From Nocardioides anomalus (GTDB lineage: Bacteria > Actinomycetota > Actinomycetes > Propionibacteriales > Nocardioidaceae): DNA of 64,000 nt. Location of the stretch: positions 3,782,001-3,846,000 of the forward strand of contig NZ_CP049257.1 of NCBI RefSeq assembly GCF_011046535.1, in the 5' to 3' direction. This document shows positions 16,652-60,147 of the stretch, piece after piece; within the stretch, counting starts at the first letter, position 1; every line of letters begins with the position of its first letter. A program made the position numbers and the translations under genes. The notes below the pieces were generated by a model, which was not told the origin of the DNA, made no database searches, and worked only from the letters and a program-made list of their open reading frames with translations.

Positions 16652-17819
16652 TCAGCCGCGCTGGTCGAAGCGCCGCCCCAGCAGCTCGGAGACGATGCGC
16701 ACCCGCTGCATGGTCGGCGTACCTCCGGCGATGGCCCAGCCGTGGGCGTCACGGTGCAGGCGCTCGATGCCGTACTCCTCGGAGAACCCGTTGCCGCCGT
16801 GCAGCTGGATCGCGAGCTCGGAGACCCGCTTGCCGGCCTCGTTGGCCGCCCGCTTGGCCATCGAGACCTGCAGGCTGTCGGGAAGCCCGGTGCCGGCCTC
16901 GCGCGCCGCGCGGTACACCAGCAACCGCGCCGCCTCGACCTGCACGACCATGTCGGCCAGGTCGGTCTGCACAGCCTGGAACTCGATGAGGGGCTTGCCG
17001 AACTGCTCGCGGGTGGTGACGTAGTCGATCGTCCGGTCGAGCGCGGCCTGGGCGATGGACAGGCTGACCGTGGCGTTGCCCAGCCGCTCCCACGAGAAGG
17101 CGGTGAACAGCTTGCGGAAGCCGTCGCCCGGCTCGACCAGCAGGTTCTCGGCCGGGACCAGCACGTCCTCGAAGTAGATGTCGCAGGAGGGGGATGCCAC
17201 GGAAGCCCATGAGCTTCTCCGGGACGCCGAACTGCACGCCGTCCATGTCCTTCTCGACGATGACCGCCCCGATGCCCTTGGCCCCGGGCTGGTCGTCCAT
17301 GCGGACGTAGAGCAGGTAGAGCTCGGCGTGACCGGAGTTCGAGATCCAGCGCTTGGCGCCGTTGATGCGGTAGGAGTCGCCCTCGCGGACCGCCTTGGTC
17401 GTCATGTCCGTCGCGGCCGACCCGGCGTCGGGCTCGGAGATCGCGACGGCCATCGAGAGGTCGCCGGAGATGATCGAGGGCAGGTACTTCTCCTTGAGCC
17501 GCTCCGAGCCGTGGTGCGCCACGACGCGCGCCGGGCCGGTGTTGGACTCGAAGACCTGGAACGCCGCCGGACGGCAGACCTTGGCCAGCTCCTCGATGGC
17601 GACCAGGGCGTCGAGGATGGGGGCGGCCGAGCCGCCGTACTCCTCGGGCAGGGCGATGCCGAGCAGCCCCAGCTCGCCCAACCGGCGACGCTCCTCGACG
17701 GGGAACGGGGTGCGGTCCTGGTCCCACTCCAGGGCCCGTGGGGCGTACACCTCCCGCGCGATGCGCGCAGCGGTCTCCTTGACCTGCTGCTGCTCATCGG
17801 TCAGCGCGGCGCTGCTCAT
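16652..17819 (-). pseudogene. acyl-CoA dehydrogenase, frameshifted
   Basis: Two frames together give a complete ~388-residue acyl-CoA dehydrogenase. The N-terminal part starts MSSAALTDEQQQVKE at 17819 (GGAG 7 nt upstream) and reads to GFRGIP. The C-terminal part (SCDIYFEDVLVPAENLL onward) is one base out of frame. The break is in a run of five G (17190-17194 on the plus strand); four G restores GFRGIPSCDIYFEDV, which aligns with GFRGIPSADIHFDGV of the intact paralogue at 40224-41405. Either a recent loss-of-function or a base-calling error. If intact it is an FAD enzyme of acyl-CoA beta-oxidation. Confidence 0.85.
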
Positions 17820-19963: not shown

Positions 19964-20858
19964 ATGCGCCCCTACCGCACCGTCCTGTTCGTCCCCGCCC
20001 ACAAGACCAGCTGGTACGACCGCGCCGCCGAGGCCGGGGCCGACGCGGTGTGCCTGGACCTGGAGGACTCGGTCCCCGAGCACCTCAAGCCGGGGGGCCC
20101 GCGAGGAGGTCGCCGCCGGGATCGAGCGGCTGTCCGCGTCGCACCCCGACCTGGGCCTGTTCGTCCGGTGCAACGCGATGGCGACCCAGCACGTGGGCGC
20201 CGACCTGCGCGCAGCCGTCGTGCCGGGGCTGACCGGCATCTTCGCGCCGAAGGTCAACAGCGCGATCGACGTGCACAAGTACGACGCGCTCGTCGACCTG
20301 TTCGAGAGGGAGAACGGGGCCTCGGGGCTGGAGTACATCGTCCCGGTCGAGACGATCCACGGCATCCAGAACTGCGAGGAGATCGCGGCCGCGTCGCCCC
20401 GCGTCGGCGCCATGATCGGACCGACCGCGGAGCACGCCGACATCGCCAAGGCCGTCGGCTACGAGTGGACGCCGGAGGGCACGGAGTCGGCGTACCACCG
20501 CACCAAGATCATGCTGGCGACCAAGGCGGCCGGCCGGCACGCGCTGACCGCGCTCTGGGAGCGGATCCACGACCTCGAGGGGCTCGCCGTCTTCAGCGAC
20601 CGGAGCCGGGCGATGGGCTTCCGCGGCCAGGTGGTGCTGCACCCCTCGCACGTGCCGGTGGTGAACAAGGCCTACACGCCCGACCAGGAGCAGATCGACT
20701 TCTACCGCGGGCTGCTCGACACCTATAACGAGGCGGACGCCCGCGGCGACGGCGCCGTCATGTACGGCGAGATCCACATCGACAAGGCGCACGCCGACAA
20801 GGCCACCGAGTGGCTGGCCCGCGTCGACGAGCTCGCCTCGCTCAACGGCGGCCTCTGA
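19964..20858 (+). pseudogene. HpcH/HpaI aldolase / CitE-like lyase, frameshifted
   Basis: Start MRPYRTVLFVPAHKTSWYD and AVCLDLEDSVPEHLKP are in one frame; the rest (REEVAAGIERL, EYIVPVETIHGI, MIGPTAEHADIAKAV, FRGQVVLHPSHVPVVN) continues one base out of frame. The break is a run of six G at 20092-20097; five G would restore a ~298-residue CitE-family protein with its Mg-binding Glu/Asp residues. The family cleaves or condenses beta-hydroxyacyl-CoAs (malyl-CoA, citramalyl-CoA type). Same sign and base type as the break at 17190, so sequencing error is possible. Confidence 0.85.
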
Positions 20859-56197: not shown

Positions 56198-56761
56198 ATG
56201 ACCCGCATCCCACCCGCCAGCCCCGACGTCTATGGACCGCTCTTCGGCGACCAAGCGCCGCTTCGCCAGCAGGTCTACGCCAACGCCCCCGCCATTGCCG
56301 GCCCGTACCTGCAGTTCATGAAGGCCCTGCGCGACAACTCCGTCCTCGCGAGACGTCTCGTCGAGCTCGTCCGCCTCCGCATCAGCTTCCACAACCAGTG
56401 CCGAAGCTGCATGGCCATCCGCTACGCCGACGGCATCGACGACGGCCTCACCGAGGACCTCGTCTGCAGCCTCGAGAAGCCCCAGGAAGCAGACGACCTC
56501 ACCCCAGCCGAACGAGCCGCCCTCGCCTTCGCCGACAAGATGGCCACCGACCACCTCCAGGTCGACGACCAGACCTTCAGAGACCTCGCCGCCCACTTCA
56601 CCGACCAGGAACGCATGGACCTCTGCTTCCAGGTCGCCACCTTCGTCGGCTACGGCCGCCTGGGCTCCGCCCTCGCCATGACCGATGACCTCCCGCAGGA
56701 GTACGCCGATCCGGACGCGGTGCTGGCGCCGTGGACGCAAACACCTCAGTCAGTCGTCTGA
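56198..56761 (+). CDS. carboxymuconolactone decarboxylase/AhpD-like protein
   Basis: This 187-residue AhpD-fold protein has the CxxC in RISFHNQCRSCMAIRYADG and the C-terminal half LTPAERAALAFADKMATD with YGRLGSALAM. It lies 4 bp after the enoyl-CoA hydratase and ends the operon. Its 3' end is duplicated in inverted orientation directly downstream, at the left border of the SIR2 island; only the last residues (PWTQTPQSVV here) differ from that copy (PWTQAPREGG). Confidence 0.88.
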   Translation: MTRIPPASPDVYGPLFGDQAPLRQQVYANAPAIAGPYLQFMKALRDNSVLARRLVELVRLRISFHNQCRSCMAIRYADGIDDGLTEDLVCSLEKPQEADDLTPAERAALAFADKMATDHLQVDDQTFRDLAAHFTDQERMDLCFQVATFVGYGRLGSALAMTDDLPQEYADPDAVLAPWTQTPQSVV

Positions 56762-56847
56762 CTTCGTCAGCCTCCCTCCCTCGGCGCCTGCGTCCACGGC
56801 GCCAGCACCGCGTCCGGATCGGCGTACTCCTGCGGGAGGTCGTCGGT
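56681..56847. repeat. inverted repeat, left border of island (59-bp arms)
   Basis: Arms 56681-56739 and 56789-56847 are complementary at 58 of 59 positions with a 49-nt spacer. The left arm is the 3' coding end of the AhpD-like gene; the right arm is the same stretch in reverse. Outside the arms the two copies diverge, both toward the stop codon and upstream. Confidence 0.9.
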
Positions 56848-56851
56848 CAGA
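56767..56851 (-). pseudogene. 3' fragment of an AhpD-like gene (inverted copy)
   Basis: The minus strand reads LTDDLPQEYADPDAVLAPWTQ-APREGG then stop, the C-terminal ~27 residues of a paralogue of the gene at 56198. Homology stops abruptly at 56851, where low-GC island sequence begins. The differing last residues show it comes from a different gene copy, not a snap-back artefact of the neighbour. Confidence 0.75.
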
Positions 56852-57011
56852 GTGATGGATCTGTGACAAGACCAGACGTCTCCGAGTCTGCCGGCGGCGA
56901 GCCGAGAAGTGCGGCAAAGCTACTGAGAGTGTCAAGTCGATCGACCGCTTCGCTCTATCGGATTCCGAGGGCGCGGCGGTGTACGGTCCTACCCTTAGCG
57001 CGGGATCGAGC

Positions 57012-58022
57012 ATGGGGACTTGGATGTTAGACGAGTCAGCTCTCCTCTTGGGGAGGCTTTCGGACCGGATCAGCCAGCGCCGGCGCCCCTTGGCGCTAAT
57101 CCTTGGGTCCGCAATCTGTCAGCAAGATGGCAGAGGCGTGACAGGCGTGAAAGGGATCGTGCAGGCTGGACTGGCCCAATTTGGCGATGTCGATCCCGAT
57201 CAGTCGCTCTTGCGAGCTTTAGAGAGTTCAGCCGTCGACCTCGGCGAGATCTACCGAATCTTCATGGGTCGCTTGATCAAGTTCCGCGGTCGCTCCGCCG
57301 CCGACGGGCTCGTACGCGACGCGGTGCTCGCCGCATGGGCTGGAAACGGAGTTCCGACTGGGGACGGCACCGCTGCCGCGGAGAACGCCGATTGGAGTCT
57401 GACCGATGGCCTGATCGGGCTCGGCGAGATCATTGCGGCCAACCCCGAGGCATTCTCGGTGATCATAACCACCAACTTCGATCCCCTAATCGAGGTCGCC
57501 TTAGCTCGCGCTGGAGTTCAGACTCGTCGTCGGGTCGTAACGGGTGATGCGCCCATTGCCAATGACACGACTGCCTCAGTCGACGGGGTCGTGGAGGTCG
57601 TGTACGTTCATGGGTTCTGGCACCAAGCGCCGACCATGCACACGCCCGAGCAGCTGATGTACTCGCGCCCTCGACTACAGACTGCCATAGTCCGGACCAT
57701 CGGGAACGCAGACGCTCTCGTCGTGGGTTATGGCGGCTGGGACGATGTTGTGACCGGGGCGCTTGAGGCTCTAGCCGTCGACGATGGCGCCACAGCCGAG
57801 GTCATGTGGTGCTTTTATGAATCCGACGAGGCCGTTATTCAAGCGCGGCATCGGACTCTCCTTGGCCGCGTCGGTCGATTGATTATTGACGGCCTCTTTC
57901 ACAGATATTCGGGCATCGACTGCCACGCGTTTTTCCCCCCGCTTAGCCCGAGAGTTGGAGATATATTCGGACGAGGCAGTTCCTGCCGTCCACGGGGCGC
58001 CGAAGGGTCTAGTCCTACTTGA
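57012..58022 (+). CDS. SIR2-domain protein (N-terminal half of a probable SIR2-STAND fusion)
   Basis: This frame encodes a SIR2-like NAD-binding/NADase domain (residue numbers from ATG 57012): LALILGSAIC (glycine-rich NAD loop, about 27-36), ITTNFDPLIEVAL (TTNFD at 153-157), YVHGFW (His200-Gly201) and VVGYGGWDD (239-245). The last ~35 residues after HAFFPP are shadow sequence, because the homologous continuation (PRLARELE) is in the next frame. Removing one C from the T5C6 run at 57931-57941 fuses it to the NTPase below, giving 927 residues. A start at ATG 57024 is also possible (GGGGA upstream). Probably an NAD-depleting effector of anti-phage defence. Confidence 0.8.
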   Translation: MGTWMLDESALLLGRLSDRISQRRRPLALILGSAICQQDGRGVTGVKGIVQAGLAQFGDVDPDQSLLRALESSAVDLGEIYRIFMGRLIKFRGRSAADGLVRDAVLAAWAGNGVPTGDGTAAAENADWSLTDGLIGLGEIIAANPEAFSVIITTNFDPLIEVALARAGVQTRRRVVTGDAPIANDTTASVDGVVEVVYVHGFWHQAPTMHTPEQLMYSRPRLQTAIVRTIGNADALVVGYGGWDDVVTGALEALAVDDGATAEVMWCFYESDEAVIQARHRTLLGRVGRLIIDGLFHRYSGIDCHAFFPPLSPRVGDIFGRGSSCRPRGAEGSSPT

Positions 58023-59796
58023 CGACTCCTTAATCTCAGGCGCCCAAGCTCTTCATTCCGAACAGGACCTGTCGGCGTTCTTCGACGGTCGCGCCCCTGA
58101 CTGGGCGTTGGCGAGTTCCTCAACCATCCCATCCCTAGATGTCGTAGACCGCATCTGCTCAACGTTAGAGAGTGGTAAGCAATCACGGCCCCGGTGGCTC
58201 ATGCTCCTCGCTGCCGCGGGCGACGGAAAATCGACCGCGCTGATGCAGGTTGCATACAGGATGCATAAGGCGGGAAGGAACGTATATTGGCGACCTCACG
58301 CCGGCGTCACGTTGGACGTCTCAGCCATCGCAGACCTTGCTACAGAGGAAGCCCCTCTACTAATTGTTGACGAAGCTGACAATTGCGTACCGGCCCTCGA
58401 AGAGTTGGCAGGGGCCCTGGAAGGGCGCCAACTCGACGTCGTCGCGGGCGCCCGATTGTCGGACTGGCGGAATGCGCGCGGTGATATCTCGCGATTCGCG
58501 AACGTTACTGCGTCTGAGGAGACTTTTGGACGTTTGAGCAGGCGAGAGGGCCGGGCGATCATCGCCGCTTGGTCGTCGATTCCCAAGGGTCTCGGCCTGC
58601 TCGGCGACAAGGGCGGTCTGGACGAGCAACTCAAACGCCTTTTGGACGCTGTCGAATCAGATAAGCGTAGTAACGGCTCGCTGCTCGGCGGGCTCTTTCG
58701 ACTACGGTTCGATCAGTCGCGACTCGATGCACACGTCAACGAAATGCTAGACAATCTTGAAGAGCACACTATCGACGGCTCGCACGTTTCACTACTTAAA
58801 GCATTTATCTATGTGTGCGCGTTTGAGATCGGTGGCCTCGCTGGGATCGACCGCAGGCTTTGGGCTGAACTGCTAGGCATCGACGTAAAGGAACTGAGAC
58901 GAACTGTCGAATTCAGCCTAGGAACCGAAGCCGCGACCGCACGAGCGGGAGGGCTTGTTCAGGTTCGCCACCCCGAAATTGCAAGAAGTGCCATCAGGCT
59001 GCTGCGAGGACGTAGTCGTGGTCTTGACCTCGGAGAGATATACGGCGATATAGTCCGGTCGGCGATAGCCCTAGGTCGTCACCTAGAGCTGGCCGATTAC
59101 TCGCGCGTCGTGCATCTACCCACGAAGATATCGGACGGTCTACGGGAGGCTGGGTACTCCAAGATTAGCTCATACCAAATCGCCGTAAACGCTGCCAGCG
59201 AGGCCGCGGAGGCAGAGCCGAGTCTGCTCGTGTACGAAACCGATCTCGGATCACTATATCGGAAGATGGGCCAGCCGGAGGTTGCCGCAGAGCGCTACGC
59301 CGCCGCGTATACTCGCATGCACCTATATCGTGATCGCGAGCGGTCAGCAAGCGGATTCTTCTACGATTGGTCTCTCTCATATCTCGACGCGGACGAGCCT
59401 GCGAGCGCGCTTCTTGTTGCCGCGGTTGGCCTGAGTCGCGAGCGGGCCAAACTGACTCGCACCGAGGCCGGGCGGTACTTCGTTGTAATCGCTCGATCCC
59501 TCGTTCGGATCGGACGCGATACCGGATCGGAGCGAGCAAGACTCGGGCTCGCGGCCGTCTTCAAGCTGGCCGAATCTACCCTTGTTCCCGCGGACGATCT
59601 AGAGGCGTGCCGAAACTTATCAAGTCAGGGAAAAGCTCCGTCCACTTCTCAACTCGACTCCTCACTAGCCTTGAGACTGCTTGAAAAATGTCTCGTTCAA
59701 CTTACCAGGGAGGCCGCAGCCCTGCAGACGTTACGCGTTCCGAACCCCGGGCTTCTTTCGGCGACCATCGAACCGCTAATCGGCCAAGGTCGATGA
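57886..59796 (+). CDS. P-loop NTPase with TPR-like C-terminus (C-terminal half of SIR2-STAND fusion)
   Basis: This frame encodes a STAND-like ATPase: Walker A AAAGDGKSTALMQ (Lys406 of the fused protein), Walker B APLLIVDEADN (Asp453-Glu454), a sensor Arg in VVAGARLSDWRN, and LSRREGRAIIAAW. A helical C-terminal region follows with TPR-like pairs (DLGSLYRKMGQPEVAAERYAAAYTRM). Its first possible start, TTG 57886, has no Shine-Dalgarno and lies 137 bp inside the SIR2 frame, so it is unlikely to be made alone. In STAND defence proteins the C-terminal repeats sense a phage product and the ATPase oligomerises to activate the effector. Confidence 0.78.
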   Translation: MTASFTDIRASTATRFSPRLARELEIYSDEAVPAVHGAPKGLVLLDDSLISGAQALHSEQDLSAFFDGRAPDWALASSSTIPSLDVVDRICSTLESGKQSRPRWLMLLAAAGDGKSTALMQVAYRMHKAGRNVYWRPHAGVTLDVSAIADLATEEAPLLIVDEADNCVPALEELAGALEGRQLDVVAGARLSDWRNARGDISRFANVTASEETFGRLSRREGRAIIAAWSSIPKGLGLLGDKGGLDEQLKRLLDAVESDKRSNGSLLGGLFRLRFDQSRLDAHVNEMLDNLEEHTIDGSHVSLLKAFIYVCAFEIGGLAGIDRRLWAELLGIDVKELRRTVEFSLGTEAATARAGGLVQVRHPEIARSAIRLLRGRSRGLDLGEIYGDIVRSAIALGRHLELADYSRVVHLPTKISDGLREAGYSKISSYQIAVNAASEAAEAEPSLLVYETDLGSLYRKMGQPEVAAERYAAAYTRMHLYRDRERSASGFFYDWSLSYLDADEPASALLVAAVGLSRERAKLTRTEAGRYFVVIARSLVRIGRDTGSERARLGLAAVFKLAESTLVPADDLEACRNLSSQGKAPSTSQLDSSLALRLLEKCLVQLTREAAALQTLRVPNPGLLSATIEPLIGQGR

Positions 59797-59929
59797 CTGA
59801 CGCACGTCCGAGGCCATTGCACTAACAGGCACGAGGCGCTTCCTGGATTCCAACTACACAACGCTTTGCTCGGCAGAGAATTTGTGATCCGAGAAGTTGG
59901 ACAGCAGCAGGGCTCGACGTCCCGGCAAG

Positions 59930-60147
59930 TCAGCACCGGCCTGGGCATGCTCGTCCAGGCCATCGGCTCACCCGACATGCGCGAGGGCGCGCAGGCCTTC
60001 ATCGACAAACGCGGGCCGGAGTTCGCCGGGCCCGCCGTCAGGCGGGGTCGGGGAACTCTGGCTTGCGTTTGTCGATGAAGGCCTGCGCGCCCTCGCGCAT
60101 GTCGGGTGAGCCGATGGCCTGGACGAGCATGCCCAGGCCGGTGCTGA
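59930..60147. repeat. inverted repeat, right border of island (83-bp perfect arms)
   Basis: Arms 59930-60012 and 60065-60147 are perfectly complementary over 83 bp, with a 52-nt, partly complementary spacer. The right arm is the 3' part of the crotonase gene at 60038-60850; the left arm is the same stretch inverted. Perfect identity at synonymous sites points to a recent event or gene conversion. Confidence 0.92.
59932..60037 (+). pseudogene. 3' fragment of a crotonase gene (inverted copy)
   Basis: The plus strand reads STGLGMLVQAIGSPDMREGA-QAFIDKR then GPEFAGPA, matching the C-terminus of the crotonase at 60038 except for its last residues (KPEFPDPA there). It has no stop of its own: it runs directly into the neighbouring gene's stop on the other strand. 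Homology begins abruptly at 59930. Confidence 0.75.

Follow-up and report, generated by a model that had tools for sequence, protein, structure and literature searches.

One gene in two frames

Do two adjoining reading frames that carry the halves of a candidate anti-phage receptor represent two genes, a broken gene, or one gene that the assembly has misread? The question arises in a 64,000-nucleotide stretch of the Nocardioides anomalus genome (RefSeq assembly GCF_011046535.1, contig NZ_CP049257.1, positions 3,782,001 to 3,846,000; hereafter the window), where two open reading frames (ORFs) overlap on the + strand: ORF1 (57012-58022) and ORF2 (listed from 57886, stop codon 59794-59796). We consider it likely that 57024-59796 is one horizontally acquired gene for a single SIR2-nSTAND5-helical-repeat protein of ~923 residues, that its split is a homopolymer error of the assembly, and that the protein works in the manner of Avs5.

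A Pfam scan of ORF1 (57012-58019) matched SIR2_2 (PF13289; E 2.8e-10, 40.9 bits against a cut-off of 24.5), and ORF2 (57886-59793) matched nSTAND_NTPase5 (PF25199; E 1.1e-33, 116.5 bits against a cut-off of 34). The preliminary description of this locus, which had read a SIR2 domain and a STAND-like NTPase in adjoining frames, is thus borne out, and the SIR2 motifs on which it relied lie in a domain that scores above the Pfam cut-off. We then compared ORF2 with 5.8 billion proteins, admitting lengths of ~350-1113 aa and scoring the 7993 candidates that shared most words (E≤0.001). This search returned nine proteins, one of which is the gene's own fragment (P0001, 531 aa, from the ATG at 58201). 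In all eight others PF13289 and PF25199 lie in one chain, and none is an NTPase alone. A second round, with the alignment of the eight as query and 7994 candidates scored, gave 28 non-self proteins at 1e-10: 18 carry both families in one chain, a count that presupposes both domains and a length close to 923 aa, while the other 10 have SIR2_2 with NB-ARC, with other NTPase labels or with none. A protein of another genome of the same genus (G403) likewise holds both domains in one frame of 920 aa (GC 0.59); its identity to the window protein is 38% in a 145-aa stretch of the SIR2 half and 26% in 450 aa of the NTPase half. Because all eight non-self relatives of the NTPase half and this same-genus protein hold both domains in one chain, we take the two parts to be one gene; two separate genes are rejected, the eight being fused with no NTPase alone among them, and the refutation by separately encoded homologues that the preliminary description had set out does not apply to them.

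The alignment to full-length relatives locates the join: ORF1 tracks them up to ...GIDCHAFFP and ORF2 from LARELE..., which puts the +1 change of frame at the T5C6 run (Table 1). This is where the preliminary description had seen one protein split, although it placed the six cytosines one base off, at 57936-57941 instead of 57935-57940. Its single fused chain also stands, but not the start at 57012 or the length of 927 residues: homology favors the ATG at 57024 (MLDESALLLGRL, compared with MINESDLLLGRL in P0002), which gives ~923 residues. P0002 is the nearest relative, 71% identical to ORF1 and 54% to ORF2; identity of the second frame to the first-round relatives is 49-55% in seven of the eight and 40% in the eighth.

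The catalytic and nucleotide-binding residues are conserved across 18 relatives (Table 1). The GAGxS motif is the exception: it reads GSAIC in the window, and relatives also depart from it (GSALS, GAAVS, as well as GAGLS), the last position being S in 12 of the 18, T in 3, a gap in 2 and another residue in 1. The tail that had been called TPR-like is repeat-like, with a match to 7obi, and TPR_12 appears in P0002 only below cut-off.

Table 1. Positions in the window of the SIR2-nSTAND5 gene, its motifs and its surroundings
Feature	Position	Strand	Remarks
SIR2 effector part, first frame as printed	57024..58022	+	PF13289; frame change, then stop 58020-58022
GAGxS-like NAD-binding motif, reads GSAIC	57105..57119	+	last position differs from sirtuin GAGxS
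TTNFD with catalytic Asn	57468..57482	+	N, F, D kept in 18/18 relatives
YVHGFW, HG motif with catalytic His	57603..57620	+	HG kept in 18/18 relatives
GYGGWDD, SIR2 domain motif	57726..57746	+	motif reading, relatives' alignment
T5C6 run, frame changes +1	57930..57940	+	T5 57930-57934, C6 57935-57940; alignment with relatives
Linker, nSTAND NTPase and C-terminal helical part, second frame	57941..59796	+	PF25199; frame open from 57886
Walker A AAAGDGKST	58210..58236	+	G, G, K of GxGK in 18/18 relatives
Walker B-like LLIVDEAD	58357..58380	+	first D in 18/18 relatives
TPR-like stretch of C-terminal helical tail	59098..59307	+	phmmer match to 7obi (CTPR-rv4), E 4.8e-4
Low-GC single-gene insertion between two convergent genes	56850..59929	+	GC ~0.59, ~0.7 around
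Left edge: inverted copy of 3' end of neighbor gene 56198-56761	56679..56849	.	60/61 nt, loop 49
Right edge: inverted copy of 3' end of enoyl-CoA hydratase-like gene (minus strand)	59930..60147	.	101/107 nt, loop 4

Homopolymer shifts elsewhere in the assembly

As printed, the assembly does not hold both domains in one open frame. The exact 11-base T5C6 word occurs once in its 5.12 Mb (reversed control, 0), and no second break was noticed across the 2.8 kb of the gene. We evaluated frame shifts at other homopolymers in 1.264 Mb of this single-contig assembly (the window plus 60 stretches of 20 kb), with a codon model trained on long frames taken from the window and from the first 20 of those stretches. 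G/C runs of at least five were checked for the same coding frame on both sides, and were counted only where each side showed a clear coding frame on the same strand. Runs of five kept the frame in 760 cases, with 10 shifted by +1 and 20 by -1; runs of six kept it in 46, with 6 (6/54) shifted by +1 and 2 by -1; and runs of seven were all shifted by +1 (6/6), with none in the same frame and none shifted by -1. Random positions gave 6655 in the same frame, 41 at +1 and 91 at -1. The two runs of six with a -1 shift (L046, L100:6682) look by eye like gene boundaries, and are kept in these counts.

The 12 +1 cases at runs of six and seven fall in 11 genes, two runs lying in one gene. When the pieces were scanned apart, the same family profile spanned the break in six of them (lpqB, nagB, TIGR00730, a citE-like lyase, priA and a dimethylargininase); support across the break was partial for nagA, a nonribosomal peptide synthetase A-domain and a ferredoxin reductase, and two (L083, L093) were recognized by eye only, from their peptides. 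Such a density of breaks in these genes of a living cell is implausible, whereas a miscount of homopolymers by the assembly is plausible. Since the same +1 shift is found at G/C runs of housekeeping genes, we read the break in the SIR2-STAND gene as most likely a sequence error, a miscounted homopolymer; its shift has the same sign as the others (modulo 3, the codons of ORF2 start 1 away from those of ORF1). Foreign codon usage kept the codon-model scan from flagging this gene itself, and assembly error is here something that we infer from the other genes. The frameshift itself is ordinary, and apparent frameshifts in this assembly, in defense and housekeeping genes alike, should not be taken as biology without reads.

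A G6 run elsewhere in the window (20092-20097) interrupts a citE/HpcH-type lyase gene with a +1 shift, probably through an assembly error of the same kind.

Distribution and effector exchange

Proteins with PF13289 and PF25199, similar in size and with uninterrupted frames, form the window protein's own family; they include those of Nostocoides sp. HKS02 (P0003, a SIR2 family protein), a Cellulomonas metagenome-assembled genome (P0008) and Microbacterium sp. MYb62 (P0024). The family is thinly spread. Matches at E≤1e-20 were found in 2 of 394 genomes of the class, host included; in the other the match falls within the SIR2 region of a frame of 930 aa, where a P-loop was also recognized by eye. 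A search of 396 genomes of the phylum with ORF2 returned, besides the host, two weak matches of ~55 residues. In the host genome SIR2_2 and nSTAND5 each pass the cut-off once; in the host genus nSTAND5 passes it in 9 of 196 genomes, host included. A search of genome contigs gave three partial matches only. Carriage by phage or plasmid is rejected: the 23 pattern matches in viral contigs included none confirmed as a relative, and of the 13 matching plasmid records none covers 80% of the query (among the matches listed, 10, coverage is 18-33%, from the SIR2 end).

The eight other nSTAND5 proteins of the genus differ at their N-termini: three carry SIR2_2, one carries SIR2_2 just under the cut-off (24.0 against 24.5 bits), one carries Mrr_cat with a helix-turn-helix, and three have no recognized domain, some of which are perhaps partial or misread frames. 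There is thus one clear exchange of effector on the nSTAND5 NTPase, which is the design of the Avs families. The protein with Mrr_cat (L131:948-5051, genome G943) has 1368 aa, in which a helix-turn-helix, an Mrr-type nuclease and nSTAND5 make up a nuclease version of the same receptor design.

Proposed function and its alternatives

The preliminary description had proposed an anti-phage candidate that depletes NAD. Judged from sequence, the protein is such a candidate and probably acts through NAD+. We propose that the C-terminal repeat part would hold the protein off and would recognize a phage component; the STAND ATPase would then bind ATP and the protein would oligomerize; and the clustered SIR2 domains would hydrolyze NAD+, so that the infection is aborted.

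Several observations weigh against this account of the locus. The frame break stands in the printed sequence; the GAGxS motif ends in cysteine, in contrast to the serine of those first-round relatives that span it; and 11 of 127 invariant positions of the NTPase half are lost. No defense neighbor was seen by eye in the stretch listed, and the placement of the domains differs from that in Avs5.

The first three of these points would fit a real frameshift and a recent pseudogene, whose products would be no more than a truncated SIR2 domain and a separate NTPase part, and horizontally acquired defense genes are often lost. We nevertheless regard decay as improbable. The break is single in 2.8 kb, and the same +1 shift affects other genes of the assembly, priA and lpqB included. 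Of the positions invariant in the eight first-round relatives, the window protein keeps 93/97 in the SIR2 half and 116/127 in the NTPase half, one of the lost positions falling in the GAGxS motif; in a leave-one-out control the intact P0002 keeps a similar share (97/103 and 127/140), and the closest-knit relatives keep all. The protein is little decayed.

Slightly less probable still is a SIR2-STAND protein that serves as a signaling or housekeeping regulator and not as an anti-phage system. The lack of a recognized defense neighbor would suit it, and a role in defense is here a prediction from sequence; but the patchy distribution in class and genus, the position of the gene in a low-GC insertion, the replacement of SIR2 by a nuclease in one relative and the likeness to a proven defense protein all argue for defense.

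The preliminary description had also offered a functional switch at T5C6, either phase variation by run length or programmed +1 frameshifting at UUUUUCCCCCC, and this we dismiss as very improbable: the homopolymer does lie at the domain boundary, CCC-C can in principle permit +1 slippage and CCC is followed two 0-frame codons later by CTT, which the host seldom uses (45 of ~73,800 codons), but beyond that codon and the run itself nothing speaks for recoding or phase variation, whereas the eight non-self ORF2 relatives and the G403 protein require no slip, the 0-frame stays open to 58020-58022 with no stop codon at the slip site, CCC is followed directly by CCG, which the host uses for proline more than any other codon (2573, against 1547 CCC), six cytosines are short for a phase-variable tract, and the sign of the shift equals that of the assembly's other shifts, those in housekeeping genes among them.

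Genomic setting

The gene is alone in an insertion of low GC content, each edge of which is an inverted copy of the 3' end of the adjoining gene (Table 1). The right-edge fold-back matches perfectly over its outer 83 nt and has all six mismatches in the inner 24 nt. As a conjecture, both edges look as if they had been copied by snap-back synthesis at each end of a chromosome break, before the foreign DNA was joined. In an empty-site comparison, a homologue of one of the two genes compared (gene A) was found in genome G420 with no homologue of the other (gene B) in the surrounding 12 kb, and no pre-insertion site was thereby found.

Fold-backs with arms of at least 40 nt number 13 in the 1.264 Mb (~10 per Mb sampled), several of them not adjoining low-GC DNA, which weakens the idea that they are a signature of islands only. 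Because similar long ones occur elsewhere in the genome, fold-backs may be a general habit of it. Four with arms of 64-87 nt lie beside or inside gene ends (L077:16643-16913, L079:19177-19455, L091:2626-2805, L086:3799-4061), one of them at the 3' end of a gene recognizable as tuf (EF-Tu). Another (L041:19595-19759, at ~3.37 Mb; 77 nt, 84%) sits at the 3' end of a dapE-like gene and adjoins a low-GC stretch with a DUF5343-like protein and another small one, both named by eye. Three are of the same size, with 55-nt arms and a 74-nt loop (L033:13722-13905 and 16965-17148, L103:12438-12621); the two in L033 are near-identical in sequence, and the set hence looks like a dispersed repeat.

Comparison with known systems

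The preliminary description could name no matching system, and the defense-system profiles of PADLOC-DB 2.0.0 agree in giving no match to the whole protein: they match the SIR2 part only, save PtuA in ORF2 (E 0.049). Its Avs models, one for Avs5 among them, gave nothing at E≤0.1 for the window parts or at E≤0.01 for P0002, P0005, P0008 and P0009. NCBIfam offered no name for P0002 at E≤0.01, and a search for papers under the names of the nSTAND5 domain (PF25199) found none, which says nothing of the literature beyond that search.

Other SIR2 effectors use other sensor or regulator modules: Argonaute in SPARSA, SLOG in Thoeris ThsA, and the helical body of DSR2. No SLOG family, which ThsA carries, appeared in Pfam scans (E≤0.1) of the window parts, P0002, P0005 and P0009. 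No match reached the APAZ/Ago part of SPARSA, the pAgo-type PADLOC models covering only 128-271 of P0002 and 145-275 of ORF1. Compared by sequence with PDB chains, the family profile scored E 0.002 for FAM118B but no better than E 1.5 for DSR2, and Avs5 chains were absent from its 26 matches (E≤10).

By structure the closest likeness is probably to Avs5 (AVAST type 5; EfAvs5 9jap, the AVAST5 filament 9nc9, PaAvs5). The Avs5 chain, similar in size, likewise begins with a SIR2 domain (PF13289) and carries a STAND ATPase, and the helical repeats at its C-terminus would be shared as well; 9jap is the best Foldseek match along the chain, from which Avs5-like working is suggested by inference. Of the Avs5 SIR2 motifs, TTNxD and HG/NG (PMC12931631) are present in the window as TTNFD and HG, with N, D, H and G in 18/18 relatives, while GAGxS reads GSAIC. 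The NTPase differs: in the same source the tested PaAvs5 proteins combine PF13289 with nSTAND3 (PF20720), whereas that of the window protein is nSTAND5 (PF25199). Scans of the window parts and of P0002, P0005 and P0009 (E≤0.1) gave no nSTAND3, and we accordingly do not file the protein as Avs5. The border between nSTAND5 proteins and nSTAND3 Avs5 is nonetheless soft, since four of the eight more distant nSTAND5 proteins of the genus also match nSTAND3, one of them over cut-off.

The next Foldseek match after 9jap is the SAMD9 family, with a SIR2-like domain, a STAND P-loop and TPR in the same order, and the likeness of Avs5 to SAMD9 has already been published. According to PMC5445408, SAMD9 proteins have Gly in place of the Walker A lysine and carry AlbA and OB-fold domains; the window, in contrast, has GDGKST, with K in 18/18 relatives, and no AlbA or OB-fold domain was found in Pfam scans of the window parts, P0002, P0005 and P0009.

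The evidence is evenly balanced on whether the SIR2, Mrr-type and unrecognized N-termini on the same NTPase make up a distinct actinobacterial Avs-like type, a modular sensor-ATPase with exchangeable effectors of which the SIR2 version would deplete NAD+. With this comparison actinobacteria gain a candidate Avs5-like immune receptor of a different STAND clade, and intact relatives suited to direct testing are identified.
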